Source: Shinella granuli (GTDB lineage: Bacteria; Pseudomonadota; Alphaproteobacteria; Rhizobiales; Rhizobiaceae). From it: 64,000 nucleotides of DNA. This document shows, in pieces, positions 6,463 through 24,407 of the stretch. The notes beneath the pieces are model-generated. The model had not been told where the DNA came from. It worked only from the letters and a program-made list of their open reading frames with translations, and did no database searches. How positions within the stretch are numbered: the first letter of the stretch is position 1; every line of letters begins with the position of its first letter. A program made the position numbers and the translations under genes. The stretch is taken from contig NZ_SLVX01000001.1 in NCBI RefSeq assembly GCF_004341885.1, positions 1 through 64,000 of the forward strand. Reading direction: 5' to 3'.

Positions 6463-7455
6463 TCAGGCGACGGAAATCTGGCGCTTTTCTTCGACCGACT
6501 TCACGGCCGCATCGGCAAGCGCAAGGGCCGCGAGGCCGTCGGCGCCCGAGGGCGAGATGGTCGCGCCCTTTTCGATGGTCGCGATGAAGGCCGCGATCTC
6601 GTTGGCGTAAGCTTCCGTGTAGCGGGTCATGAAGAAATCGTGCAGCGGCGGGCGGGTGTAGCCGTCGCCGTTTGCGACCTCGATGGAGACCGGGCGCTGG
6701 TTCTCGGCAGACACCATGCCCTTCGAGCCGTGCACCTCGATGCGCTGGTCGTAGCCATAGGTGGCGCGGCGCGAGTTGGAGATGACGGCCTGCTTGCCGG
6801 ACTTGGTCTGCAGGATGACGGAGACGCTGTCATAGTCGCCGGCCTTGCCGATGTCAGGATCGACCAGCACGGCGGCGGTGGCAAAGACCGAGACGACCTC
6901 CTCGCCGAGCAGGAAGCGGGCCATGTCGAAGTCGTGGATCGTCATGTCGCGGAAGATGCCGCCGGAGCGCTTGATATAGTCGACCGGCGGGGCACCGGGG
7001 TCGCGGGACGTGATCGTCACCATCTCGACATCGCCGATGCGGCCGTCGTCGATCGCCTGCCTGACGGCCATGAAGTGCGGGTCGAAGCGGCGGTTGAAGC
7101 CGACCATCAGCTTGCCCTTGGTCTCGTCGACCACCTTCATGCAGGCCTTCACACGATCGACATCGAGGTCGATCGGCTTTTCGCAGAAAATGGCTTTTCC
7201 AGCGCGGGAGAAGCGCTCGATGAGGTCGGCATGGGTGTCGGTCGGCGTGCAGATCACGACGGCGTCGATGTCCTTCGCCGCTTCGATCGCCTCGATGGTG
7301 CGGACCTCGCAGCCATATTGCCTGGCGATCGCGTCGGCGGCGGCCGGGAAGGCATCCGCGACGGCGACGAGCACGGCGTCCGGGTTGCCGGTCACGGCCT
7401 TGGCGTGGACCTTGCCGATGCGGCCTGCGCCGAGAAGACCAAATCTTACAGTCAT
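6463..7455 (-). CDS. iolG: Inositol 2-dehydrogenase
   Basis: A 330-residue NAD-dependent oxidoreductase of the GFO/IDH/MocA family that oxidises myo-inositol to scyllo-inosose. The N-terminal Rossmann motif GLLGAGRIGKVHAKA (residues 6-20) binds NAD; EKPIDLD (near 95) is the conserved catalytic-loop motif with Lys; DYIKRSGGIFRDMTIHDFDM (about 154-173) carries the Asp and His of the active site. Length and sequence agree closely with rhizobial IdhA/IolG. The same family includes MocA of rhizopine catabolism, so a related inositol derivative as substrate is possible. ATG 7455 was chosen over an upstream extension because it starts directly at the Rossmann strand. It lies downstream of the inositol-type ABC genes on the same strand. 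Confidence 0.88.
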   Translation of the reverse strand: MTVRFGLLGAGRIGKVHAKAVTGNPDAVLVAVADAFPAAADAIARQYGCEVRTIEAIEAAKDIDAVVICTPTDTHADLIERFSRAGKAIFCEKPIDLDVDRVKACMKVVDETKGKLMVGFNRRFDPHFMAVRQAIDDGRIGDVEMVTITSRDPGAPPVDYIKRSGGIFRDMTIHDFDMARFLLGEEVVSVFATAAVLVDPDIGKAGDYDSVSVILQTKSGKQAVISNSRRATYGYDQRIEVHGSKGMVSAENQRPVSIEVANGDGYTRPPLHDFFMTRYTEAYANEIAAFIATIEKGATISPSGADGLAALALADAAVKSVEEKRQISVA

Positions 7456-7488
7456 GTTGTCCTCGTTATGTGGGGGCGAATAGGAAGC

Positions 7489-7568
7489 AGCGAATAGGGG
7501 GGAGGCAATAGGCAAGAGCAAGCGGTCTGCGCCGGTAACTATTCGCTATTCGCCATTCCCTATTCGCT
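7489..7568. repeat. Inverted repeat with CTATTCGC units between iolG and the permease gene
   Basis: An 11-bp inverted repeat (AGCGAATAGGG at 7489-7499 and CCCTATTCGCT at 7558-7568) encloses 58 bp that contain further ATTCGC/GAATAGG units in both orientations. It lies between two genes of the same operon direction, so it is not a simple terminator; a dispersed repeat or RNA processing structure is likely. Confidence 0.6.
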
Positions 7569-8648: not shown

Positions 8649-10187
8649 TCACTGGGCAGCCAGTTCCATGACCTTGACCTGCGTCGCCTCCGCCCGGTCG
8701 AGGATGCCGGTGACGCGGCCCTCGTGCATGACCATGACGCGGTCGCTCATGCCGAGCACTTCCGGCATTTCCGACGAGATCATGATGACGGCGACACCGT
8801 CGCGGGCGAGCTCGGTGACGAAGCGGTGGATCTCCGCCTTGGCGCCGACGTCGATGCCGCGGGTCGGCTCGTCGAGGATGAGGATGCGCGGATGGGTGAG
8901 CAGCCAGCGGCCGATCAGCACCTTCTGCTGGTTGCCGCCCGACAGGTTCTCGATGCGCTCGTGAAGGTTCGGCGTCTTGACCCGCAGCTTCCGGCTCATC
9001 TCCTCGCAGACCCTGGTCAGTTCGCGCTCGGCAACGAAGCCGTTCTTGACGAACTTGTCCTGGAGGACGGCGATCTGCATGTTTTCCAGGATGTCGAGGA
9101 TCAGCAGGCAACCGGTGTCCTTGCGGTCTTCCGTCAGGAAGGCCATGCGATGCCGGATCGCCGTGTTCGGGCTGTCGATATTGACCGGCTTGCCGTTGAT
9201 CTCGATCGTCCCGGAGCTTGCTGGCGTGACGCCAAAGATCGTCTCGGCGACGTTCGAGCGGCCGGAGCCGACGAGGCCGGCAAGGCCGAGGATCTCGCCG
9301 GCGCGCACGTCGAAGGAGACGTCGTGGAAGACGCCCTTGAGCGTGAGGTTCTTGACCGACAGGATGACATCGCCGATCGGCACCTCTTCCTTCGGGAACA
9401 TCTGGGTGATCTCGCGGCCGACCATCATGCGGATGATGTCGTCGCGCGTCACGTCGGTCGAGGCATGCGTGCCGATATACTTGCCGTCGCGGAACACCGA
9501 GAACTCGTCGGCGATCTCGAACAGCTCGTTCATCTTGTGGGTGATGTAGACGATGCCGATGCCCTGCGCGCGCAGATCGCGGATGATGGTGAAGAGGTGC
9601 TCGACCTCGCGCTCGGTCAGCGCCGAGGTCGGCTCGTCCATGATGAGCACGTCGCTCTCGTAGGAGACGGCCTTGGCGATCTCGACCATCTGGCGGTTGG
9701 CCACCGAGAGGTCGCGCACCTGGGTTTCCGGGTCCATCACGATGTTGAGGCGCTTGAAGAGCGCGGCCGTCTTGCGGTGCATCTCGCCGTGGTCGACGAA
9801 GCCGAAGCGGTTCTTCGGCTCGCGGCGGATCCAGATGTTCTCCGCAACGGTCATGAAGGGCATCAGGTTGAGTTCCTGATGGATCATGGCGATGCCGTTC
9901 TCCAGCGCGTCGAGCGGCGATTGCAGGCGGATCTTCTGGCCCTTGAGCAGCACCTCGCCCTGGTCGGGCGTGTAGATGCCGGCGAGGATCTTCATCAGCG
10001 TGGATTTGCCCGCGCCGTTTTCACCCATCAGGGCATGAACGGTGCCGCGCTTCAGCTTGAACTCGACGTCGTCAAGCGCGACGACGCCCGGAAATTCCTT
10101 GCGGACACCTTCCGCGGACAGCAGATATTCAGCATTCGGAATGGCGCCGCTTGCACGAACCGCGGCCATGGTGGTTGGACTGACCAT
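8649..10187 (-). CDS. Inositol-type sugar ABC transporter, ATP-binding protein
   Basis: A 512-residue tandem ATPase of the RbsA/MglA/IatA type. Domain 1 has Walker [10 protein letters not shown] near residue 56 and Walker [10 protein letters not shown] near 180; domain 2 has the degenerate first loop [12 protein letters not shown] near 312 and signature [15 protein letters not shown] near 415 with [13 protein letters not shown]. This pattern of one strong and one weak ATP site is normal for the family. The start at 10187 has a strong GGGAGGGG ribosome site. It lies 52 bp upstream of the permease gene and 103 bp downstream of the binding-protein gene, with a 15-bp-arm palindrome in the latter gap. 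Confidence 0.88.
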
Positions 10188-10290: not shown

Positions 10291-11220
10291 TCAGTTCTTG
10301 GCCTGGAAGTCGGCGATGTTGGCCGGGGTCACGAGCTGGAAGGGGATATACACCTTGGTGTCGACCTGCTCGCCCCTGGCCAGCTTCAGCGCGGCGTCGA
10401 CCGAGCCCTTGCCCTGGCCGGCGGCGTCCTGGAACACCGTCACGTCGAGATCGCCGGCCGCCATGGCGGCAAGCGCGTCCTGTGTGGCGTCGATGCCGGC
10501 GACGACGACGCTGTCCATCGAGCGGCCGGCGGCCTTCAGCGCCTGGATGGCGCCGATCGCCATCTCGTCATTGTTGGAGATGACGGCGTCGAATTCCAGG
10601 CCTGCGGAGAGCCAGTTGGTCATGAGGTCGGAGCCCTGCGTGCGCGACCAGTTGGCGGTCTGCTCCTCGACGATTTCGAGGCCCTTGCACTCGTCGGTGG
10701 CGATGACGTCCTTGATGTCCTGGGTGCGCACGCGTGCGGCCTGGTTGGAAAGCTCGCCCATCATGACGACGACCTTGCCCTTGCCGTTCAAGAGGCGGCA
10801 GACTTCCTTGGTTTCCAGCGTGCCGGATTCCTTTTCGTCCGAGGCGACGAAGGCCTGCTTTTCCGGCAGCTCGTTGACGTTGACCGGCTCGCGGTTGACA
10901 TAGACCAGCGGAATGCCCGCATCGGCCGCGGCCTTGGAGAGCGCGGCGGTCGCGTCGGTGTCGACCGGGTTCACGATGATGGCGCTGACGCCCGAGGCGA
11001 TGAAGTTCTGCACCTGGCTCTGCTGCTTGGCGACGTCGTTCTGGGCGTCCTCGATCTGCAGATCGACGCCGTCGAGGGTCTTGGCGTAGTCGGACATGCC
11101 GTTGCGCAGAACGGTCAGGAAGTTGTCGTCGAACAGCGCCATGGACACGCCGATCGTCTCGGCATGGGCGGCGGTGGACATCATCACGGCAAGCGCCGAG
11201 CTCAGAATGAATTTTTTCAT
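10291..11220 (-). CDS. Inositol/rhizopine-type periplasmic binding protein
   Basis: A 309-residue exported binding protein (Peripla_BP_4). The signal peptide MKKFILSSALAVMMSTAAHA is followed by mature ETIGVSM; start ATG 11220 was picked for this. Conserved parts include VNPVDTDATAAL, PLVYVNREP, ISNNDEMAIGAIQAL and VAGIDATQDALAAM. The family contains myo-inositol binding protein IbpA of Caulobacter and MocB of rhizopine catabolism; the length matches both. It heads an operon with ATPase, permease and iolG, and is behind a promoter with palindromic operators at 11349-11395. Whether the ligand is myo-inositol or a methylated/aminated inositol cannot be read from sequence. Confidence 0.85.
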   Translation of the reverse strand: MKKFILSSALAVMMSTAAHAETIGVSMALFDDNFLTVLRNGMSDYAKTLDGVDLQIEDAQNDVAKQQSQVQNFIASGVSAIIVNPVDTDATAALSKAAADAGIPLVYVNREPVNVNELPEKQAFVASDEKESGTLETKEVCRLLNGKGKVVVMMGELSNQAARVRTQDIKDVIATDECKGLEIVEEQTANWSRTQGSDLMTNWLSAGLEFDAVISNNDEMAIGAIQALKAAGRSMDSVVVAGIDATQDALAAMAAGDLDVTVFQDAAGQGKGSVDAALKLARGEQVDTKVYIPFQLVTPANIADFQAKN

Positions 11221-11348
11221 GTCGTTCTCCTCCTCAACGTGGCGTCCGGCAGCGCCACTCGATTGTCCGGACGGCTGGCCCTTGCGGGCAGCCGGCCTCT
11301 TGCTCCTCCCGGGAGGCAAGAGGCCAAAACAGAATAAACAAACCGCGA

Positions 11349-11476: not shown

Positions 11477-12289
11477 CTAGATGTTTTCGCGGATGAAGGC
11501 GAGGCTCTGCGCCACGGCCGCCCTGGGGTCGGCGACGTCGTGCACGGACGGCGAGAAGGGCTCGAAGGAGAGCGGTCCGGCATAGCCGGCGGCAGCCAGG
11601 GCCCTGATCTGGCTGATGTTTCCGAGCCGGTCCTGCGGGCCGACCAGCACGCGGTGGCCGTCGCGCATGGCGGAAACGGTGACATCGGCATCCTCGACGC
11701 CGGAAATATGGACGAGGCCGGTGAGCGCCGCGAAGAGGTCCGGTTCGCCGGCGAGGTGATGGTGGAACGTGTCGTGCACAAGGCGGAATGTCTGTTCCCC
11801 GCCCACGGCCTCGATCGCCTCGGCAGCCTCGCGCTTGGAGCGCAGCGAGCAGATCTCGAAGCCGAGCGGCTCGACGAGGCCGATGATTCCGGCCGCAGTC
11901 AGCATCGGCGTCAAGGCGGTCAGCGCCTCGGCGAGGTTGGCCTGCCGCTCGCCGTCGGCCTGGCCGGTGCCGTCGTTCTTCGGCACGAGCACGAGCGCGC
12001 GGGCGCCCGCCGCCGCGGCGTAGTCGATGAGGTCCTTGGCCTCGGCGGCGCGGGCGGGCGTCCATTCGTTGAAGCGCTGGAGCGCATTGATCGAGATGAT
12101 CGTGACGCCGTGGCGGGCGGCGAGCGTCTTCACCTCGGCTGGCGCGGTGCCGTCCAGGATGGCGTTGCCGGTAAGGTCGTTGCGGATCTCGACTTTCGTG
12201 ATGCCGAGCGAAGCGGCGAGGGCGAAGAAGGCGTCGAGGTTCAGCGCGGGCGTCGTCATGTGGTTGAGGGCGAAATCAAGGGGCGGCAT
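11477..12289 (-). CDS. Sugar phosphate isomerase/epimerase-family TIM-barrel protein
   Basis: A 270-residue cytoplasmic protein of the AP_endonuc_2 TIM-barrel family (xylose-isomerase-like), which includes inosose isomerase IolI, inosose dehydratase IolE and MocC of rhizopine catabolism. Metal-site segments visible are EPLGFE near residue 140, VHDTFHHH near 175, HISG near 205 and SFEPF near 245, giving the Glu/His/His/Glu pattern of the family. The exact reaction is not decidable; an inosose or inosamine isomerase fits the context between the inositol transporter and a LacI regulator. It reads on the minus strand and is preceded by the regulator gene with a 163-bp gap, possibly sharing its promoter. 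Confidence 0.72.
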   Translation of the reverse strand: MPPLDFALNHMTTPALNLDAFFALAASLGITKVEIRNDLTGNAILDGTAPAEVKTLAARHGVTIISINALQRFNEWTPARAAEAKDLIDYAAAAGARALVLVPKNDGTGQADGERQANLAEALTALTPMLTAAGIIGLVEPLGFEICSLRSKREAAEAIEAVGGEQTFRLVHDTFHHHLAGEPDLFAALTGLVHISGVEDADVTVSAMRDGHRVLVGPQDRLGNISQIRALAAAGYAGPLSFEPFSPSVHDVADPRAAVAQSLAFIRENI

Positions 12290-12424
12290 GGAATGGGGGT
12301 CCTCCGGTCTTCGGGGCCGCCGACAGGGCGGCCTCGCATGCACGCATGAGGATCGGGAAGCGCTTGACGGGCGTCAAAGCCGAAGGCGCCGGCCACGCCC
12401 TCATTGCTGACAGATTCATCGGGC

Positions 12425-12452: not shown

Positions 12453-13484
12453 TCAGATATTCTCCGGAAGAAAGATGTCGAAGGGCAGGAATGTCTGCCC
12501 GGGCACGGCCGCCTCGCCCTTCTCGATGGCCGTCACCATCAGCGCGACGAGTTCGCGGCAGAGGGCGGGCAGGGGCGTGCTGATCGCCATGGTGACGACG
12601 TCATCGGCAAGGCCGGCCTTCGATTCTGGCGTCAGCTCGTTGACGATGAGCTGGATCTTCCCGCCGTAACCCTCTTCGCGGATGGCGGAAATCGCGCCTT
12701 CCATGCCGCCGCCGGCGACATAGAGGCCGACGAGATCGGGATGCTGGGCGAGCAGGTTGGCGGTCGCCTCGTGGGTGATCTCGCTGGTGTCGAGATTGAC
12801 GAGCGTGTCCAGCACCTCGAAATCCTGGCCCTTCTCGCGGAAGAAGGAGCGGAAGCCCATCTCGCGCAGTTCGTGGCCGTGGAAACGGTGGCTGCCGACG
12901 AAGATCGCCACCTTGCCGGGCCGGCGGGCGCTGCGGGCGATCATCCAGGCCGCCGTGCGGCCAACCTTCATGTTGTTGAGGCCGATATAGCCCTGGCGCA
13001 CGTCCATGGCGAAGTCGGAGAGCAGGCAGAAGAGGGGAATGCCACGGTTCCTCAAGTCCTCCACCATGGTGGTGGTTGCCGGATAGTCGGGGGCGACGAC
13101 GGCGAGGGCCTGGTTGCGGGCGGAGAGCTGCCGCAACATGTCCGTCATCGCGGCCGGCGTCTGCGCGTTGATGAAGTCGACCTGCGGCACGATGCGCGCC
13201 GTGGTGCAGGCATTGCAGGCGATCTCGATCTCGCGCGCGAAATTCTGGTAGAAGGCCTGGCCCGGGCGCTGGAAGCTGAAGCCCAGCCGGTATTGCGGCA
13301 GGTCCTCGAAGACCCGCTGCCGGATGAGCCCGATCGCGTGATAGCCGATCGTATTGGCGGCATCGTAGACCCGTCGCGCCGTTTCCTCGCGCACCTTGTG
13401 GCGCCCGTTCAGCACGCGATCGACCGTCGCCACGCTGACACCGGCGGCTTTCGCCAGATCCGTAATGGTGGGTCGCGATGCCAT
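12453..13484 (-). CDS. LacI-family transcriptional regulator
   Basis: A 343-residue regulator with an N-terminal LacI helix-turn-helix (ITDLAKAAGVSVATVDRVLN, residues 6-25), hinge region and a periplasmic-binding-protein-like effector domain (about 65-343). It lies between the inositol transport block and the divergent mocD-like operon, so it could control both. Repeated GGAAT/ATTCC words upstream of its own gene and upstream of the transporter operon are candidate operators. The effector is probably an inositol derivative. Its own likely promoter is at 13546-13575. Confidence 0.87.
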   Translation of the reverse strand: MASRPTITDLAKAAGVSVATVDRVLNGRHKVREETARRVYDAANTIGYHAIGLIRQRVFEDLPQYRLGFSFQRPGQAFYQNFAREIEIACNACTTARIVPQVDFINAQTPAAMTDMLRQLSARNQALAVVAPDYPATTTMVEDLRNRGIPLFCLLSDFAMDVRQGYIGLNNMKVGRTAAWMIARSARRPGKVAIFVGSHRFHGHELREMGFRSFFREKGQDFEVLDTLVNLDTSEITHEATANLLAQHPDLVGLYVAGGGMEGAISAIREEGYGGKIQLIVNELTPESKAGLADDVVTMAISTPLPALCRELVALMVTAIEKGEAAVPGQTFLPFDIFLPENI

Positions 13485-13514: not shown

Positions 13515-13575
13515 CGGAATGATAGCGAATGATGGAATTTGATGCATTCTATCATGGCAGGATTGAGAGATGCAA
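13515..13575 (-). promoter_or_regulatory. Regulatory region between lacI-type gene and the mocD-like operon
   Basis: On the minus strand a promoter reads -35 TTGCAT (13570-13575), 18-bp spacer, -10 TAGAAT (13546-13551). Just downstream are repeated words GCGGAATG (13514-13521) and ATGGAAT (13532-13538), and an imperfect dyad ATGATAGCGAATG (13519-13531) / CATTCTATCAT (13545-13555). The same words occur in the transporter operator at 11349-11374. This fits an autoregulated repressor that also reads the divergent promoter. Confidence 0.5.
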
Positions 13576-13647
13576 GCAGGGGCGGTATCGTTTGTGCATC
13601 AGGCGAGGCGGGTGCCTGCAAGCGCCGCCGCAGGGAGGAGACGAGGG

Positions 13648-14733
13648 ATGAAGCCGACGAAGCGGGACTACAGCCTTCTTGGCCGCGATGCCGAGGCCGC
13701 CGTGGCCAATGGCCTGGCCGCGGCCGAGTGGTATCACACCGAAATCGCCCGCAAGGACATGAAGGCGCTGATGCAGCGCAGCGACGCGCCGGCGATCCGC
13801 GACACCGCGATCTGGCTCGGCACCATGCTTGTCACCGGGGCTGCCGGCATCTGGTTCTGGGGGAGCTGGTGGGCGGTGCCGTTCTTCCTCGTCTATGGCG
13901 TGCTCTACGGCTCGGCCTCCGACAGCCGCTGGCACGAATGCGGCCACGGCACGGCCTTCAAGACGATGTGGATGAACGACGCCGTCTACCAGATCGCCTG
14001 CTTCATGATCATGCGCAATCCGGTGACCTGGCGCTGGAGCCACACGCGCCACCACACCGATACGGTCATCGTCGGCCGCGATCCCGAGATCGCCGTGATG
14101 CGCCCGCCGGATCTCGCGCGCCTCGTGCTCAACGTCTTCGGCCTGCTCGATGCCTGGCACGCCGTCATCGACATGCTGCGCAATGCGGCGGGCGTGATGA
14201 GCGCGGCGGAAAAGACCTTCATTCCCGCCTCCGAGCAGCCGAAGGCGATCCGTATCGCCCGCATCTGGTTCGCCATCTACGTTGCGACCATCGCCCTCTG
14301 TTTCGCGCTCGGCTCGATCCTGCCGGCCATGCTCATCGGCCTGCCGCGGCTTTATGGCGCCTGGCATCACGTTTTGACGGGGCTGCTCCAGCATGGCGGC
14401 CTTGCCGACAATGTCATCGACCACCGGCTGAACAGCCGCACCGTCTACATGAACCCGGTCAGCCGCTTCATCTACTGGAACATGAACTACCATGTGGAGC
14501 ACCACATGTTCCCGATGGTGCCCTACCATGCGCTGCCGCGGCTGCATGCGATGATCAAGCACGACCTGCCGGCGCCGAACCCGTCCATGTGGCACGGCTA
14601 CCGGGAGATGATCCCCGCCTTCCTGCGCCAGCTTCGCAACGAGGACTATTTCCTCAAGCGCGACCTGCCCGGGACGGCGCGGCCCTACAAGGAAGAATTC
14701 CACAGCGAGCCGGCCGTCGCGGCCGCCGAATAA
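13648..14733 (+). CDS. MocD-like membrane di-iron oxygenase (fatty-acid-desaturase fold)
   Basis: A 361-residue membrane protein with the three histidine boxes of the desaturase/hydroxylase superfamily: HECGHG near residue 95, HTRHH near 135 and HVEHHMF near 288, binding two irons. Hydrophobic segments flank them (IWLGTMLVTGAAGIWFWGSW near 53; IWFAIYVATIALCFALGSIL near 208). In Rhizobium leguminosarum MocD works with the ferredoxin MocE and reductase MocF in rhizopine (3-O-methyl-scyllo-inosamine) breakdown, proposed as O-demethylation. The same three genes follow in the same order here. ATG 13648 was chosen because the desaturase homology begins soon after and GGGAGGAG lies upstream. Substrate here is inferred, not shown. 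Confidence 0.78.
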   Translation: MKPTKRDYSLLGRDAEAAVANGLAAAEWYHTEIARKDMKALMQRSDAPAIRDTAIWLGTMLVTGAAGIWFWGSWWAVPFFLVYGVLYGSASDSRWHECGHGTAFKTMWMNDAVYQIACFMIMRNPVTWRWSHTRHHTDTVIVGRDPEIAVMRPPDLARLVLNVFGLLDAWHAVIDMLRNAAGVMSAAEKTFIPASEQPKAIRIARIWFAIYVATIALCFALGSILPAMLIGLPRLYGAWHHVLTGLLQHGGLADNVIDHRLNSRTVYMNPVSRFIYWNMNYHVEHHMFPMVPYHALPRLHAMIKHDLPAPNPSMWHGYREMIPAFLRQLRNEDYFLKRDLPGTARPYKEEFHSEPAVAAAE

Positions 14734-14758: not shown

Positions 14759-15073
14759 ATGAGCGACACCTGGATCGAGGTCTGCGCAGCGGACGAGATC
14801 GACGAGGAGGATGTGATCCGCTTCGACCATGCGGGCCGTACCTTCGCGATCTATCGCAGCCCGGAAGACACCTACCACGCGACGGACGGGCTCTGCACCC
14901 ACGAGAAGATTCACCTCGCCGACGGGCTGGTGATGGATCACATCATCGAATGTCCCAAGCATAACGGCCGCTTCGACTACAAGACCGGCGAGGCCAAGGG
15001 CGCACCGGTCTGCGTCGACCTCAGGACCTATCCGGTCAAGGTCGAGGGCGGCACGGTCTTCATCGGGCTCTAG
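14759..15073 (+). CDS. Rieske [2Fe-2S] ferredoxin (MocE-like)
   Basis: A 104-residue Rieske ferredoxin, the electron carrier of an oxygenase system. The cluster ligands are visible as C-T-H in CTHEKIH (near residue 47) and C-P-K-H in CPKHNGRFD (near 65). Length and layout match soluble NAD-linked Rieske ferredoxins and MocE. It starts 26 bp after the mocD-like stop with a GGAGGAGAG ribosome site and passes electrons from the reductase encoded next to the desaturase-like oxygenase. Confidence 0.88.
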   Translation: MSDTWIEVCAADEIDEEDVIRFDHAGRTFAIYRSPEDTYHATDGLCTHEKIHLADGLVMDHIIECPKHNGRFDYKTGEAKGAPVCVDLRTYPVKVEGGTVFIGL

Positions 15074-15125: not shown

Positions 15126-16349
15126 ATGGCGGATTTCGTCATCGTCGGCGCCGGCGAATGCGGCGCACGCGCAGCCTTCGCGCTCAGGGAAAAGGGTTTC
15201 GACGGCACGATCACCCTGATCGGCAGCGAAACGCATCTGCCCTATGAGCGTCCGCCGCTCTCCAAGGAGGCGCTGGTCGCCGGCGCCGGCCCGAAACTCG
15301 TCGCGGACGCGGAGCGTTATGCCGCCGCCGGTATCGCGGTGCTTTCCGGCCGCACGGTCCTTGAGATCGACCGGGCCGGCCGGCGGGTACGACTCGACGA
15401 TGGCACGGCGCTTCCCTATGACAAATTGCTGCTGGCGACCGGTGCGCGCCCGCGCACCCTGCCGGGCATGGCCTGCGGCGGGCGCATCGCCGCCCTTCGC
15501 AGCCATGACGATGCAACGCGCATTCGCGCCCATCTCGTGGAGGGAAGCCACGTCGCCATTCTCGGCGGCGGGTTCATCGGCCTGGAGCTGGCGGCGAGCG
15601 CCTGCACGCTCGGTGCGAGCGTGACGCTCATCGAGGGCCTGCCGCGCGTCCTCAGCCGCGGCGTGCCGGCGGAGATCGCCGCGATTATCGCCAGCCGCCA
15701 TGCGGCCGAAGGCGTCGAGGTGCTGTGCGGCGCGAAGGTTGCCGGCATCGCGGAGCGGCCGGGCGAGGTTCGCCTCACGCTGGAGGACGGCCGCATCGTC
15801 GCGGCCAGCCTGCTGGTCGTCGGCATCGGCGCCGTGCCGAACACGGAGCTGGCGGAGGCGGCGGGGCTCGCGGTGGACAACGGCATCGCCGTCGACGGCC
15901 TGCTGTGCACCTCAGATCCCGATATCCTCGCGGCCGGCGACTGCACGTCCTATCCGCTGCCGCTCTACGGCGACCGACGCGTCCGGCTCGAATCCTGGCG
16001 CAATGCGCAGGAGCAGGGCCAGCTTGCGGCGGCCAACATGCTCGGCGGCGGCGAGGCGCATTGTGCCGTGCCGTGGTTCTGGTCGGACCAGTACGACATG
16101 ACGCTGCAGATCGCGGGGCTTGCCGACGGTGCGGCGGCGACCGTGCGGCGCGATCTCGGCGAGGGCGCCTTCCTCCTCTTCCATCTCGATGCCGAGGGCC
16201 GGCTGATCGCGGCGAGCGGCATCGGCAAGGGCAATGCGGTCGCCCGCGACATCCGCCTTGCGGAAATGCTGATCGCCGCCCGGCGGCATCCCGATCCGGC
16301 CGCGCTTGCCGCGCCGGAAACCAGACTGAAGACATTGCTTGCCGCCTGA
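15126..16349 (+). CDS. Ferredoxin reductase, NAD/FAD-dependent (MocF-like)
   Basis: A 407-residue flavoprotein of the rubredoxin/ferredoxin reductase type (BphA4/ThcD family). FAD-binding motif IVGAGECGARAAFALRE is at residues 5-21, NAD-binding ILGGGFIGLELAASA near 145, and the second FAD segment ILAAGDCTSYPL near 268. It should transfer electrons from NADH to the adjacent Rieske ferredoxin. It is the third gene of the moc-like set and is followed 20 bp later by the PanB-like gene. Confidence 0.87.
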   Translation: MADFVIVGAGECGARAAFALREKGFDGTITLIGSETHLPYERPPLSKEALVAGAGPKLVADAERYAAAGIAVLSGRTVLEIDRAGRRVRLDDGTALPYDKLLLATGARPRTLPGMACGGRIAALRSHDDATRIRAHLVEGSHVAILGGGFIGLELAASACTLGASVTLIEGLPRVLSRGVPAEIAAIIASRHAAEGVEVLCGAKVAGIAERPGEVRLTLEDGRIVAASLLVVGIGAVPNTELAEAAGLAVDNGIAVDGLLCTSDPDILAAGDCTSYPLPLYGDRRVRLESWRNAQEQGQLAAANMLGGGEAHCAVPWFWSDQYDMTLQIAGLADGAAATVRRDLGEGAFLLFHLDAEGRLIAASGIGKGNAVARDIRLAEMLIAARRHPDPAALAAPETRLKTLLAA

Positions 16350-16369
16350 AGGGCGGCCCGGAGGACAGG

Positions 16370-17164
16370 ATGAAGACCAGGAGACCAACCGTTGCCGACC
16401 TCAAGGCGATGAAGGGCAGGCGGCAGCTCACCATGCTGCGCGTCGTGACGCTGGAGGAGGCGGAGGCCGCCGAGAAGGCGGGCATCGACCTCGTCTCCGT
16501 GCCGCCGGCGCTGCTGGGGCCGGCCTTTCGCGAGGCCGCGCCCACGGTCTTCGCCTTTCCGGGGCTGGAATACGGCGATTTCGTCACGGCGGACGATTAC
16601 CTGCGCGGCGCCTTCCAGGCGATGAAGGCGGGGGGCGATGCCGTCTATTGCGCCGCCGGGCTTTCCACCGTCCGGCGCCTGCGCGAGGAGGGCATCCCGG
16701 TCTGCGGCCATGTCGGGCTCATCCCCTCCAAGGCCACCTGGACCGGCGGCTTCCGCGCCGTCGGCAAGACGGCCGAGAGCGCGCTGGAGATCTTCCGGCA
16801 GGTCAAGGCGCTGGAGGAGGCAGGCGCCTTCGCGGCCGAGATCGAGGTGGTGCCCGGCGAGATCGCCGCGGCGATCAGCGCGAGGACGGGGCTCGTCATG
16901 CTCTCCATGGGCGCGGGCGCGGGCTGCGATGCGCAATATCTCTTCGCCGAGGACGTGCTCGGCCAGAACCGCGGGCATTATCCGCGCCATACGAAGGTCT
17001 ACCGCAACTTCGCCGCCGAATACGACCGGCTGCAGCAGGAGCGCATCGCCGCCTTCCGCGAATATGCCGACGACGTGCGCTCGGGCGCCTATCCCGAAAA
17101 GGGCCACCTCGTCGGCATCGCGCCGGCCGAGCTTGCGGCGTTCCTGGAACGGGTCGATGCCTGA
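16370..17164 (+). CDS. PanB-like protein lacking the metal-site residues
   Basis: A 264-residue TIM-barrel protein that aligns along its length with ketopantoate hydroxymethyltransferase PanB (same size). Conserved parts are GIPVCGHVGLIPSKATWTGG (keeping the His of PanB GHLGLTPQ), EIEVVP (keeping the Glu of LECVP), MGAGAGCDAQ, and the C-terminal SGAYPEKGH. But the metal and substrate ligands of PanB are gone: LVGDSLG is replaced by LVSVPPALLG, the LADLPF Asp by FAFPGLEYG, and the MVKIEGG Lys/Glu pair by AVYCAAG. It is therefore unlikely to make ketopantoate. It is in the same operon direction as the mocDEF-like genes, 20 bp after the reductase, so a role with them is likely but unknown. Confidence 0.75.
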   Translation: MKTRRPTVADLKAMKGRRQLTMLRVVTLEEAEAAEKAGIDLVSVPPALLGPAFREAAPTVFAFPGLEYGDFVTADDYLRGAFQAMKAGGDAVYCAAGLSTVRRLREEGIPVCGHVGLIPSKATWTGGFRAVGKTAESALEIFRQVKALEEAGAFAAEIEVVPGEIAAAISARTGLVMLSMGAGAGCDAQYLFAEDVLGQNRGHYPRHTKVYRNFAAEYDRLQQERIAAFREYADDVRSGAYPEKGHLVGIAPAELAAFLERVDA

Positions 17165-19147: not shown

Positions 19148-19343
19148 TTTAGAAGTTCATTGCATTTGACAGTTATGGCAATTCGTAAGAGGTTGCGCCA
19201 ATGTGCGCTGGGGTCCTTGGGAGTGGGGACCGGCGGGCTTTCTGCCCTCCAGTCCAGGCCGTCGTCTGAATGCGACCCCGCCCGTGCACAGAACAATGCC
19301 TGGCCGCAATTTCGGCCAGTGCGCACCAGGGAGAGACCTTTCA

Positions 19344-20417
19344 ATGAAAATGATCACTTCGCTTCTCGCCGCCGCTGCCGTCAGCGTCGCGTCGTTCGTG
19401 GCGCCGTCCTTCGCCCAGGACAAGGGCATGGTCGGCATTTCCATGCCCACCAAGACCTCGACCCGCTGGATTTCCGACGGCGAGACGATGGAAAAGCTTT
19501 TCAAGGAAGCCGGCTACACGCCGGACCTGCAGTTCGCTGACGACGATATCCCGAACCAGCTCGCCCAGATCGAGAACATGGTCACCAAGGGCGCGAAGGT
19601 CCTTGTCATCGGCGCCATCGACGGCACGACGCTTTCCGACATCCTCCAGAAGTCGGCCGATGCCGGCGTGAAGGTCATCGCCTATGACCGTCTGATCCGC
19701 GATTCGGGCAATGTCGACTACTACGCCACCTTCGACAATTTCCAGGTCGGCGTTCTCCAGGCCACCAGCCTCGTCGACGGCCTCAAGGCGAAGTTCCCGG
19801 ACACCAAGCCGTGGAACGTCGAACTCTTCGGCGGTTCGCCGGACGACAACAACGCCTTCTTCTTCTATGATGGCGCGATGTCGGTCATCCAGCCGCTGAT
19901 CGACAGCGGCGACATCGTCATCAAGTCGGGCCAGACCGGCATGGAAACGGTCGGCACGCTGCGTTGGGACGGCGCCGTCGCGCAGGCCCGCATGGAGAAC
20001 CTGCTCTCCTCGACCTACACGGACGGCCGCGTCGATGGCGTGCTCTCGCCCTATGACGGCCTGTCCATCGGCATCCTGTCGGCGCTGAAGGGTGTCGGCT
20101 ACGGCTCGGGCGACCAGCCGATGGCCGTCGTCACCGGCCAGGACGCCGAGCTGCCTTCCGTCAAGTCGATCCTCGCCGACGAGCAGTATTCGACGGTCTT
20201 CAAGGACACGCGCGAACTCGCCAGGGTCACGGTCGGCATGGTCAATGCCATCCTCGACGGCAAGGAGCCGGAAGTGAACGACACCAAGACCTATGACAAC
20301 GGCGTCAAGGTCGTTCCGTCCTACCTCTTGAAGCCCGTCGCCGTCGACAAGTCCAACGCGGAGCAGATCCTCGTCACGGACTCGGCCTATTACACGGCCG
20401 ACCAGCTGAAGAACTGA
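19344..20417 (+). CDS. chvE: Multiple-sugar periplasmic binding protein ChvE
   Basis: A 357-residue exported sugar receptor. The signal peptide [20 protein letters not shown] ends at PSFA|QD (about residue 24); ATG 19344 was chosen for it. Characteristic ChvE segments are [48 protein letters not shown] and [15 protein letters not shown]. ChvE binds galactose, arabinose, glucose and acidic sugars; in Agrobacterium it also signals to the virulence sensor VirA. Here it heads the chvE-gguABC operon and is followed by a hairpin with a T-rich tail that may lower transcription into gguA. Confidence 0.93.
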
Positions 20418-20434
20418 TCGTTTCTTCCCCTTCG

Positions 20435-20460
20435 GGGTTCGCGCCTGGCTGCGCGAACCC
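20435..20460 (+). terminator. Hairpin/attenuator between chvE and gguA
   Basis: A perfect 10-bp stem GGGTTCGCGC/GCGCGAACCC with loop CTGGCT, followed by TCTTTTC. It looks like a partial rho-independent terminator 17 bp after chvE, expected to let only part of the transcripts continue into gguAB. Confidence 0.78.
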
Positions 20461-20537
20461 TCTTTTCTCCGGATCGCAGAGCGAATAGGCTCGGTTACCC
20501 CATCGATGGGTGATGGCCGGCCGCTGGAAACTGGTAC

Positions 20538-22073
20538 ATGAGCAAGACCCTTCTCGAAATGCGCGGCATCACGAAGACGTTTCCGGGCGTGAAGGCCCTC
20601 GACAACGTCAACCTGAAGGTCCGCGAAGGCGAGATCCACGCCCTTGTCGGCGAGAACGGCGCCGGCAAATCCACCCTCATGAAGGTGCTGAGCGGCGTCT
20701 ATCCGGCCGGCTCCTACGAGGGCGAAATCCATTTCGACGGCGAGGTCCGCCGCTTCTCCACGATCTCCGACAGCGAGCATCTGGGCATCATCATCATCCA
20801 CCAGGAGCTGGCGCTGGTGCCGCTGCTGTCGATCGCGGAAAACATCTTCCTCGGCAACGAGGTGGCGACGAACGGCGTGATCGACTGGAAGCTCGCCTTC
20901 CGCCGCACGCAGGAGCTGCTCGACAAGGTCGGCCTCAAGGAGCCGCCGGGCACGCTGATCACCGATATCGGCGTCGGCAAGCAGCAGCTCGTCGAGATCG
21001 CCAAGGCGCTCTCCAAGAAGGTTCGCCTGCTCATCCTCGACGAGCCGACCGCTTCGCTCAACGAGAAGGACTCCGACGCGCTCCTGAAGCTGCTCATGGA
21101 GTTCCGAACGCAGGGCATGACCTCGATCATCATCTCGCACAAGCTGAACGAGATCAAAAAGGTCGCCGACCAGATCACCATCCTGCGCGACGGCGGCACC
21201 GTCGAGACGCTGGACTGTCATCACGAGGACATTTCCGAGGACCGCATCATCAAGGGCATGGTCGGCCGCGAGATGGAGGACCGCTACCCGGCGCGCGAGC
21301 CTGATATCGGCGAGACGCTGCTGGAGGTGAAGAACTGGAACGTCTTCCACCAGCATCACCGCGACCGGCAGTTCCTGCACGATATCAGCTTCAACGTGCG
21401 CGCCGGCGAGGTCGTCGGCATTGCCGGCCTGATGGGCGCGGGGCGCACCGAAACGGCGATGAGCCTCTTCGGCAGGAGCTGGGGCCACAAGATTACCGGC
21501 GACGTCTCCATGCGCGGCAAGCCGGTGGATGTCAGCACGATCCCGAAGGCGATCGAGGCCGGCCTTGCCTATGTGACCGAGGACCGCAAGCAGCTCGGCC
21601 TCGTGCTGATCGACAACATCATGCACAACACGACGCTCGCCAATCTCGGCGGCGTTTCGAAGGCGACGGTCATCGACAACCGGCAGGAGGCCAAGGTCGC
21701 CTCCGGCTATCGCCAGAAGCTGCGCATCCGCTCGCACTCGATCTATCAGGAGGCGGTCAATCTTTCGGGCGGCAACCAGCAGAAGGTCGTGCTGTCCAAG
21801 TGGCTCTTCACCAATCCCGAGGTTCTGATCCTCGATGAACCCACGCGCGGCATCGATGTCGGCGCCAAGTTCGAAATCTATACCATCATCAACCAGCTTG
21901 CCGCCGAGGGCAAGGGCATCCTGATGATCTCGTCGGAGATGCCGGAACTGCTCGGGACCTGCGATCGCATCTATGTCATGAACGAAGGACGCATCGTGGC
22001 CGAGCTTTCCAAGGCGGAAGCAAGCCAGGAATCCATCATGCGCGCCATCATGCGCTCCGGGGAGAAACACTGA
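20538..22073 (+). CDS. gguA: Sugar ABC transporter ATP-binding protein GguA
   Basis: A 511-residue tandem ATPase of the RbsA/MglA type. Domain 1 has Walker [10 protein letters not shown] (about residues 38-46) and Walker [10 protein letters not shown]; domain 2 has the weak loop GLMGAGRTE and signature [14 protein letters not shown] near 410, then [13 protein letters not shown]. It drives import of sugars bound by ChvE through GguB. No good ribosome site is visible ahead of the ATG, and a hairpin precedes the gene, so it is probably made at a lower level than ChvE. Its stop overlaps the gguB start (TGATG). Confidence 0.93.
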
Positions 22074-23281
22074 TGTCCACCGATACCGCGACCAAGACGA
22101 CCCAGCCTTCGGTGGGAGACTACCTGCGCAGGAACATCCGCGAATACGGCCTGCTCGTCGCGCTCGTCGTGATCATGATCTTCTTCCAGGTCATCACCAA
22201 CGGCGTGCTCTTCCGCCCGGTCAACATCACCAACCTCGTCTTGCAGAACTCGTTCATCGTCATCATGGCGCTGGGCATGCTGCTGATCATCGTGGCGGGG
22301 CATATCGACCTGTCGGTCGGCTCCATCGTCGCCTTCATCGGCGCGATCTCGGCGATCATGCTGGTGAAATGGGGGCTGCCGGCGATCGTCGTCGTGCCGC
22401 TCTGCATCCTCGTCGGCGCGATCATGGGCGCGGCGCAGGGCTATTGGGTGGCCTACCAGAAGATCCCGTCCTTCATCGTCACGCTCGCCGGCATGCTGGT
22501 CTTCCGCGGCATGACCTATGTCGTGCTCGGTGGCCGTCCGGTCGGCCCGTTCCCGAAGGATTTTCAGATCCTCTCCACCGGTTTCGTGCCGGATTTCCTG
22601 TCGCTCACGGACCCTGCGACGAGCCTCATCAAGAACTATTTCGCGCTCCTCGTCGTCATCCTGCTGGTCGGCTATGCCATCTATGCCGGGCTTCGCGAGC
22701 GGCGCATGAACACGCTGCACGAGACGGAGAACGAGCCCTTCGCCTTCTTCGCCGTGCAGATGGCGGTCATCAGCGCGGTGGCGATCTTCCTCGGCTTCCA
22801 GCTCTCCACCTATCGCGGCCTGCCGAACGTTCTCGTCGTCATGGGCCTGCTCATCGCGCTCTATACCTTCGTGACGACGCGCACGACGATCGGCCGGCGC
22901 ATCTACGCCATGGGCGGCAACGAGAAGGCGGCGAAGCTCTCGGGCATCAATACCGAGCGGCTGACCTTCTACACCTTCGTGAACATGGGGGCGCTCGCCG
23001 CGCTCGCCGGCATGATCATCGCCGCCCGCCTCAATTCGGCGACGCCGAAGGCCGGCGTCGGCTTCGAACTCGACGTCATCGCGGCCTGCTTCATCGGCGG
23101 CGCCTCGGCCTCGGGCGGCGTCGGCAAGATCACCGGCGCGGTCATCGGCGCCTTCATCATGGGCGTCATGAACAACGGCATGTCGATCATGGGCATCGGC
23201 ATCGACTACCAGCAGCTCATCAAGGGCCTGGTGCTGCTCGCCGCCGTGTTCTTCGACGTCTACAACAAGAACAAGGGCTGA
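22073..23281 (+). CDS. gguB: Sugar ABC transporter permease GguB
   Basis: A 402-residue CUT2 permease with about ten membrane segments, the first VALVVIMIFFQVITNGVLF near residue 27. [12 protein letters not shown] near 77 and IGGASASGGVGKITGA near 345 are the family signatures. The length exceeds RbsC because of an extra membrane/loop insert around residues 170-260, shared with XylH-type permeases. It overlaps gguA by one base and is part of the chvE-gguABC system. Confidence 0.93.
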   Translation: MSTDTATKTTQPSVGDYLRRNIREYGLLVALVVIMIFFQVITNGVLFRPVNITNLVLQNSFIVIMALGMLLIIVAGHIDLSVGSIVAFIGAISAIMLVKWGLPAIVVVPLCILVGAIMGAAQGYWVAYQKIPSFIVTLAGMLVFRGMTYVVLGGRPVGPFPKDFQILSTGFVPDFLSLTDPATSLIKNYFALLVVILLVGYAIYAGLRERRMNTLHETENEPFAFFAVQMAVISAVAIFLGFQLSTYRGLPNVLVVMGLLIALYTFVTTRTTIGRRIYAMGGNEKAAKLSGINTERLTFYTFVNMGALAALAGMIIAARLNSATPKAGVGFELDVIAACFIGGASASGGVGKITGAVIGAFIMGVMNNGMSIMGIGIDYQQLIKGLVLLAAVFFDVYNKNKG

Positions 23282-23411
23282 CCGGGGAACACCGGTCCGC
23301 CCAAGGATTGCAAACGTGTTTGACCGGCTGCGGATGCGGCCAGTGCGGTGACGTCTGTCCGCCGCAGGTGCGGAGCTTTGGCCGGGCCCAGGCTTCAGGA
23401 AGGAAACGAAA

Positions 23412-24407
23412 ATGCTGATGTCACAGGTCGCAAATGCCGACGGTTCGATCACGGTGGTCGTGCGCGAGGAGGGTGGCGAGGGCCGCGCGGTGAAGGGGGC
23501 GGACAGCGTCTATGCGCTCGCCATGGAAGCCGCCAACAGCGGGCAGTCCCTGAAGACCGTCATCGACGCGAAGGGCCTCGGCGCGGCCGTCGATCTGGAG
23601 GCGGCCTATGCCGCGGGCCGGCTGCTCTCGCCGATCACCCATCCGGACGCCGCCCATCTCCACCTGACCGGCACGGGCCTCACCCATCTCGGCTCCGCGG
23701 CCACGCGCGATTCCATGCACAAGAAGACGACGGAGGCGGCCGAGGAGAGCCTGACCGATTCCATGAAGATGTTCCGCATGGGCCTTGAAGGCGGCAAGCC
23801 GAAGCCCGGCGAAAAGGGCGTGCAGCCGGAATGGTTCTACAAGGGCAACGGCACGCAGGCGGTGGCGCCGGGCAGCCCGCTCACCTCGCCCTCCTTCGCG
23901 CTCGATGGCGGCGAGGAGCCGGAAATGGCCGGCATCTACGTCATCGCCGCCGATGGTGCGCCCTTCCGTATCGGCTTTGCCGTCTCGAACGAATTCTCCG
24001 ACCATGTGACGGAGCGCATCAACTATCTCTACCTCGCCCATTCGAAGCTTCGCCAGGCGAGCTTCGGACCGGAGATCCGCGTCGGCGCCGCGCCTGACGA
24101 TATCCGCGGTTTCTCGCGCATCGTCCGCGGCGGCAAGGTCCTGTGGGAAAAGCCCTTCGTCTCCGGCGAGGCGAACATGTCCCACACCTTCGCCAACCTT
24201 GAATACCACCATTTCAAATACGGCCTGTTCCGTGCCCCGGGCGATGTCCATGTCCATATGTTCGGCACGGCGACGCTCTCCTTCGGCGACGGCATCCGCA
24301 CCGAGGCGGGGGACGTGTTCGAGATCGGGGCCGACGGTTTCGGCCTGCCGCTGCGCAATCCCTTGGCGATTGCCAGGGAAGAAGAGATCGAAATCCGCCA
24401 ATTGTAG
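23412..24407 (+). CDS. gguC: GguC / AraD1-type FAH-family protein
   Basis: A 331-residue protein of the fumarylacetoacetate-hydrolase fold, GguC/AraD1 group. GguC was first named for its linkage to chvE; FAH-family members are known to dehydrate 2-keto-3-deoxy-pentonates. The C-terminal part, HTFANLEYHHFKYGLFRAPG (about residues 258-277) and VHMFGTATLSFGDG, includes family-conserved residues. Here it stands directly before an alpha-ketoglutarate semialdehyde dehydrogenase and an L-arabinonate dehydratase, so the middle step, 2-keto-3-deoxy-L-arabinonate to alpha-ketoglutarate semialdehyde, is the natural role. That role is inference from order. Start may be ATG 23412 or 23418; GGAAGG lies upstream. 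Confidence 0.85.
   Translation: MLMSQVANADGSITVVVREEGGEGRAVKGADSVYALAMEAANSGQSLKTVIDAKGLGAAVDLEAAYAAGRLLSPITHPDAAHLHLTGTGLTHLGSAATRDSMHKKTTEAAEESLTDSMKMFRMGLEGGKPKPGEKGVQPEWFYKGNGTQAVAPGSPLTSPSFALDGGEEPEMAGIYVIAADGAPFRIGFAVSNEFSDHVTERINYLYLAHSKLRQASFGPEIRVGAAPDDIRGFSRIVRGGKVLWEKPFVSGEANMSHTFANLEYHHFKYGLFRAPGDVHVHMFGTATLSFGDGIRTEAGDVFEIGADGFGLPLRNPLAIAREEEIEIRQL

Follow-up and report, generated by a model that had tools for sequence, protein, structure and literature searches.

The gene at positions 16370 to 17164 (+ strand) of a stretch of 64,000 nucleotides from Shinella granuli (contig NZ_SLVX01000001.1, positions 1 to 64,000; here called the window) encodes a 264-amino-acid protein resembling ketopantoate hydroxymethyltransferase (PanB) and lacking the PanB metal site. 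Its position at the end of an oxygenase operon raises the question of which reaction such a protein could serve. The reading given slightly better than an even chance is that of a neofunctionalized PanB, which moves the one-carbon (C1) unit from a demethylation onto tetrahydrofolate (THF). The gene starts with ATG at 16370, its stop codon ends at 17164, and a GGAGG at 16360 to 16364 (+ strand), five bases before the ATG, was read from the sequence as the probable ribosome-binding site. These coordinates and the gap of 20 bp behind the reductase open reading frame, which ends at 16349, agreed exactly with the preliminary description of the locus.

The protein was assigned to PF02548 (E 4.7e-42), the sole Pfam family found for it at E values up to 1, and with the PanB-specific NCBIfam models PRK00311 and TIGR00222 it scored 130.3 of 272 bits and 109.4 of 207.55 bits, both far below the cut-off. 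The best structural neighbors of its AlphaFold2 model (pLDDT 78.2, pTM 0.77, weak at residues 120-126 and 181-210) were the PanB structures 3vav and 1m3u, and since the rmsd was ~8 A over the entire chain, the model backs the fold and not its details. The length of 264 amino acids, described earlier as equal to that of PanB, was confirmed but is partly a coincidence, with ~19 residues lost after the former GDS motif and a C-terminal tail compensating for them. The closest relatives found were from Shinella (91-95% identity). A close copy (E below 1e-150) was present in 15 of the 21 genomes of the genus sample, and a family member (E 1e-35 or better, counting the intermediate group described below) in 32 of the 385 genomes of the class sample.

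Active-site residues were mapped onto E. coli PanB (1m3u) in a phmmer alignment, with D45 placed by the family alignment. PanB residues D45, D84, K112, and E114 corresponded to P46, G65, Y93, and A95, which bears out the earlier claim that the Mg and keto-acid motifs had been replaced; the motifs GHVGLIP, EVVP, and MGAGAGCDAQ, said to be kept, were all found. H136 and E181 were retained as H114 (codon 16709 to 16711, + strand) and E159, and V179 was replaced by a glutamate, E157 (E157-I158-E159 codons, 16838 to 16846, + strand). The side chains of residues 157 and 159 probably face the same side in the model, since both sit on one predicted strand.

Among 135 distinct relatives, counted with the window protein and without the fragments L041, L101, and L132 (also left out of the tree), D45 was retained in 2 (L159 and L171), D84 in 1, and K112 and E114 in none; none of the four was present in 133. 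H136 and E181 were retained in all 135, and all 135 had a glutamate at position 179, which is V or L in canonical PanBs. All four ligands were present in 15/15 canonical PanBs, and Glu179 in 0/15. The pattern of replaced and kept positions is not due to chance, because it is common to 135 distinct relatives, and a decayed pseudogene was rejected on the same grounds. No residues restoring the PanB ligand set were found, and a function other than ketopantoate synthesis, as suggested previously, is supported.

A tree of 74 representatives separated 63 Glu179 proteins from 11 canonical PanBs with an SH-aLRT of 98, and the metal-less proteins (55 in the tree) formed one clade with an SH-aLRT of 100, on a long branch and with long branches flagged by the program within it. 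An intermediate group of ten loci (L127, L158, and L172-L179) had D45, S46, K112, and Glu179 in 10/10 and D84 and E114 in 0/10, and this clade has perhaps a third function. The surroundings of the group included TRAP-type transporters (named by eye), PhyH, or GcvT-domain oxidoreductases; in L158 and L172, an FAD oxidoreductase with a GcvT folate domain was encoded nearby.

In S. granuli, the PanB-like gene is the last of four genes on the + strand, following those for a MocD-type desaturase-fold oxygenase (13570 to 14733; Pfam FA_desaturase; true start probably at ~13648, where homology begins), a MocE-family Rieske ferredoxin (14759 to 15073; TIGR02377, 178.6 bits, cut-off 136.15), and a MocF-type FAD ferredoxin reductase (15126 to 16349; profile matches). 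The order of the MocD, MocE, and MocF types is that of the mocDEF rhizopine set, but the window set has a LacI-type regulator beside mocD and an inositol dehydrogenase instead of MocR. The regulator gene (12453 to 13484, Pfam) diverges from the operon on the - strand, and the genes beyond it on this strand encode a TIM-barrel isomerase/epimerase-type protein (11477 to 12343, PF01261), the substrate-binding protein of a sugar ABC transporter (10291 to 11319; resembling RbsB/MglB, below their cut-offs), a sugar ABC transporter ATP-binding protein (8649 to 10187, named by reading the sequence), and inositol 2-dehydrogenase (6463 to 7521; TIGR04380, 428.9 bits, cut-off 355). These upstream genes, that of inositol 2-dehydrogenase among them, make an inositol derivative the probable substrate of the pathway. 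No purU adjoins the PanB-like gene in the window; two purU genes lie elsewhere in the S. granuli genome, one of them adjoining folD (a neighboring glyA was named by eye). Downstream, at 19203 to 24407, are the gene for a sugar-binding protein that scored above the curated ChvE cut-off and its transporter genes, which also follow the operon in L003-L006 (Shinella) and L013.

Six-frame profile searches, used because a simple gene caller misframed some genes, gave the neighbors of 124 metal-less members up to a distance of 5 kb; L041 (broken reading frame) was left out and the fragment L132 kept. Canonical panB loci (20, drawn largely from other classes) and random 18-kb regions of family-bearing genomes (20) served as controls. 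A MocD-type desaturase was found near 90/124 members and MocE near 95/124, purU near 30 (in 26 of these within ~160 bp, by open-frame distances), folD near 9, PhyH near 7, and a PF04116-type hydroxylase near 16, the last count overlapping that of the desaturase since the two profiles may share matches. Within the same distance, panC was found near 0/124 members versus 18/20 canonical panB loci. The canonical loci had folD in 1/20 and purU, desaturase, MocE, PF04116, and PhyH each in 0/20, and the random regions gave 0/20 for every neighbor scored. Fourteen of the 124 members had none of the searched neighbors within 5 kb.

The sample is biased in that 79 of the 124 members were top matches of the window protein; the remaining 45 came from genome samples, and this less biased draw gave desaturase 16, MocE 18, purU 4, folD 2, and PhyH 7. 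The linkage to mocDEF proposed in the preliminary description therefore stands insofar as the family does not occur mostly without these genes over all members, but the frequencies in the less biased draw and the other oxygenase partners make mocDEF the commonest partner, not the sole one. A role with mocDEF only was rejected, as PhyH, PF04116, and Rieske oxygenases are also partners in other branches.

The partner oxygenases of the different branches have no common fold. PhyH-type dioxygenases adjoin the PanB-like gene in L119, L153, L166, and L170, the partner in L113 was checked and is a PF04116 hydroxylase, and Rieske oxygenases are encoded near L122 and L155, that of L122 matching glycine betaine monooxygenase best, below its cut-off; Rieske alpha-subunit and DMGDH neighbors are cited solely for individually checked proteins. 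Across L113-L117, L128, and L129, a PF04116-type hydroxylase replaces the MocD desaturase, in some with MocE and a hydroxypyruvate-isomerase-like gene. Genome G614 (AT-rich, 1.6 Mb, 30% GC; L152, L153, L154) encodes five MocD-type proteins and has the PanB-like gene in four copies, a tandem pair of which faces two PhyH genes. Formaldehyde would be released by oxidative demethylation through any of these oxygenase types, and we infer that the partner oxygenases demethylate here. MocD-type genes also occur without the PanB-like gene; in 11 stretches around such genes, no replacement for the PanB-like gene was recognized, and L222, L225, L226, and L230 have a lone desaturase gene, whose function may differ.

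The linkage of the PanB-like genes to purU and folD is new here and goes beyond that to mocDEF. PurU and FolD beside the gene were confirmed by curated models, and public annotation gives the order desaturase, MocE, reductase, 'panB', purU, folD. Adjacency of purU was present in 15/54 tree representatives and required at least 9 changes on the tree. Locus L061 has the trio PanB-like-PurU-FolD without MocDEF, and in L048, from a betaproteobacterial MAG, the PanB-like gene diverges from purU, again without MocDEF. Locus L052, with a piece of mocF directly upstream, was not used as a case of PurU without oxygenase, and the purU genes of L035, L039, L041, and L056, which lie on the opposite strand at a distance of ~10 kb, were left uncounted. 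The earlier one-carbon (formaldehyde) idea thus gains independent backing from purU and folD beside the gene; it has to be loosened, since the gene has partners beyond mocDEF and some MocD-type proteins are encoded away from it, and its chemistry is one that we infer.

Rhizopine is a substrate bearing an O-methyl group, and the MocR of L024 (NF052281) scored 757.6 bits against a rhizopine-specific cut-off of 650. A MocR-like match was present in 33 plasmid records, with at least 86% identity in 14, and the PanB-like gene lay ~3 kb from mocR in all of these 14 (9 by coordinates, 5 by direct search). Seven of these close-MocR records were examined and had mocDEF between mocR and the PanB-like gene and purU after it, with a folD-like sequence following in six. 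In L237, the PanB-like gene and purU are both broken, and in L238 mocD is in two pieces. According to the available text of PMC10107442, the rhizopine catabolic units are mocDEF, mocR, mocBA, and mocC, and the mocD promoter was induced 93-fold; PanB is unmentioned in that text. The pSymB of S. meliloti 1021, a strain without rhizopine degradation (PMC8343143, available text), nevertheless carries the LacI-mocDEF-PanB-like operon, with no adjacent purU, so the LacI-type operon, that of the window included, probably serves an O-methylated compound other than rhizopine. LacI-type FixV homologues divergent from mocDEF have already been noted and an inositol derivative proposed, as the accessible part of PMC3538637 states. 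A role limited to rhizopine was rejected for the window on account of the LacI-type regulator, the inositol dehydrogenase, and the operon of S. meliloti 1021, which is present without rhizopine use.

The fold, the lost ligands, the kept and gained residues, and the gene linkage, all read from the sequence, form the basis of the proposed function; folate binding, formaldehyde as the substrate, the direction of the reaction, and the role of E157 would follow from it. Canonical PanB transfers the C1 unit from 5,10-methylene-THF to a keto acid bound by the metal, and the PanB residues kept here are presumably those acting on the C1 side. The C1/folate half of the PanB active site would be kept and the Mg/2-oxoacid half lost. 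The MocDEF-type oxygenase would hydroxylate an O-methyl group (elsewhere perhaps an N-methyl group), giving a hemiacetal or free formaldehyde, and the PanB-like protein would load the C1 unit onto THF to form 5,10-methylene-THF, either from free formaldehyde or directly from the hydroxymethyl intermediate, with H114, E157, and E159 as likely acid/base groups. FolD and PurU, adjacent in part of the family and encoded elsewhere in the S. granuli genome, would carry methylene-THF on to formate and free THF. This half-reaction is the simplest reading because the metal/keto-acid half is gone while the C1-side residues persist, with one glutamate added, and because the neighbors supply C1 (oxygenases) and consume C1-THF (FolD and PurU).

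Conversely, the demethylase operon could make use of purU and folD while the PanB-like protein makes no methylene-THF. Further points against the proposal are the low purU (4/45) and folD (2/45) counts in the less biased draw, the 14/124 members with none of the searched neighbors, the lack of an adjacent purU in the window and in S. meliloti 1021, the MocD-type genes found without a PanB-like gene, the panB deletion in E. coli described below, and two genomes (G677 and G801) in which PanC was found and canonical PanB was not. The alternative that survives best, though unlikely, is a lyase, either a retro-aldolase or a hemiacetal lyase, that works without metal on the hydroxylated compound and frees formaldehyde or another fragment without folate; FolD and PurU would act later on methylene-THF formed without it. 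It accords with the neighboring enzymes, which make hydroxylated products, and with the TIM-barrel group of the PanB-like fold, rich in lyases and aldolases among the lower-ranked structure matches. But it leaves unexplained both the invariance of H136 and E181 and the PanB-like-PurU(-FolD) loci without MocDEF (L061 and L048), and the differing oxygenase types suggest different parent compounds, for which one common product, the C1 unit, is simpler. A hydroxymethyltransferase working in the PanB direction, from methylene-THF to an acceptor other than ketoisovalerate, is decidedly less probable: PanB homology and the folate-gene neighbors agree with it, but the enolate-forming metal site is gone, PurU consumes C1-THF and does not supply it, and the surroundings (transporter, oxygenase, inositol dehydrogenase) look catabolic. 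Slightly less credence still is given to a non-catalytic binder of folate or formaldehyde, be it a carrier, a sensor, or an oxygenase partner; the loss of the catalytic metal ligands would fit, but the barrel residues, H114, E157, and E159 are strongly conserved, which speaks for catalysis.

The annotated function, ordinary ketopantoate synthesis, was followed into 22 family-bearing genomes. Genomes G004, G574, and G670 carry the PanB-like protein without PanC and without canonical PanB, and in G546 (94% complete) a mere trace of PanC and no canonical PanB were found. In G677 and G801, PanC was found and canonical PanB was not, the one finding that would still permit a PanB role; the gap in these two reflects either the assembly or another source of ketopantoate. 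Despite this result and the product name carried in public records, ordinary PanB activity is very improbable and was rejected, as the ligands are replaced, the same positions are replaced and kept in 135 distinct relatives, panC is absent within 5 kb of all 124 members, three genomes carry the protein with neither PanC nor canonical PanB, and the S. granuli genome already has a canonical panC-panB pair.

Compared with PanB (PF02548; 1m3u and 3vav), the protein shares the fold, the Pfam family, H136, and E181, but it is without D45, D84, K112, and E114, has Glu at position 179, is shorter after the GDS motif, and is encoded beside oxygenases and purU/folD, never with panC. A direct coupling of demethylation to THF is found in dehydrogenases of the dimethylglycine/sarcosine type, whose folate domain is GcvT; genes of this kind lie near the intermediate loci L158 and L172, and here a PanB fold would take the part of GcvT. 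The joining of formaldehyde and THF is usually treated as spontaneous. As described in the available text of PMC7073904 and PMC8343143, and as generally known, Fae (H4MPT) and Gfa (glutathione) join formaldehyde to a C1 carrier, the role proposed here, but the carrier of the PanB-like protein would be THF. A calculation from E. coli growth in the accessible part of PMC7073904 makes the spontaneous step far too slow for growth on C1 compounds, and a THF-using Fae variant is suggested there as something that might exist. The same text reports a test of two E. coli enzymes, canonical PanB being one, that might promote formaldehyde-THF condensation promiscuously; deletion of both had no effect in vivo, a result that concerns canonical PanB and not the derived PanB-like protein. 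A folate-cleaving side activity has been proposed for canonical PanB (PMC4814558, available text), and in the SAR11 C1 scheme the figure legend marks spontaneous reactions and unidentified enzymes (PMC3160333, available part). Searches of the open PMC literature gave no recognizable description of the PanB-like sub-family or of a formaldehyde + THF enzyme.

A broader form of the proposal is tentative and falls somewhat short of an even chance: a dedicated THF-dependent enzyme for formaldehyde activation, descended from PanB but metal-free and playing for folate the part of Fae, in a range of bacteria that extends from legume rhizobia, with the gene inside the rhizopine cluster, to small AT-rich alphaproteobacteria with several copies, each copy with its own demethylating oxygenase. 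If true, the PanB-like protein would be the missing THF-dependent formaldehyde-activating enzyme, a widespread PanB-derived enzyme that fills this gap and explains formaldehyde disposal by demethylating oxygenases. One to three genes would be added to the rhizopine pathway, a new tool would become available to synthetic C1 metabolism, and the wrong annotation as pantothenate synthesis would be corrected across the family. Public records such as NZ_CP139999.1 and NZ_CP071458.1 give the product as 3-methyl-2-oxobutanoate hydroxymethyltransferase, with a pantothenate GO term, for proteins in which the PanB ligands are absent.
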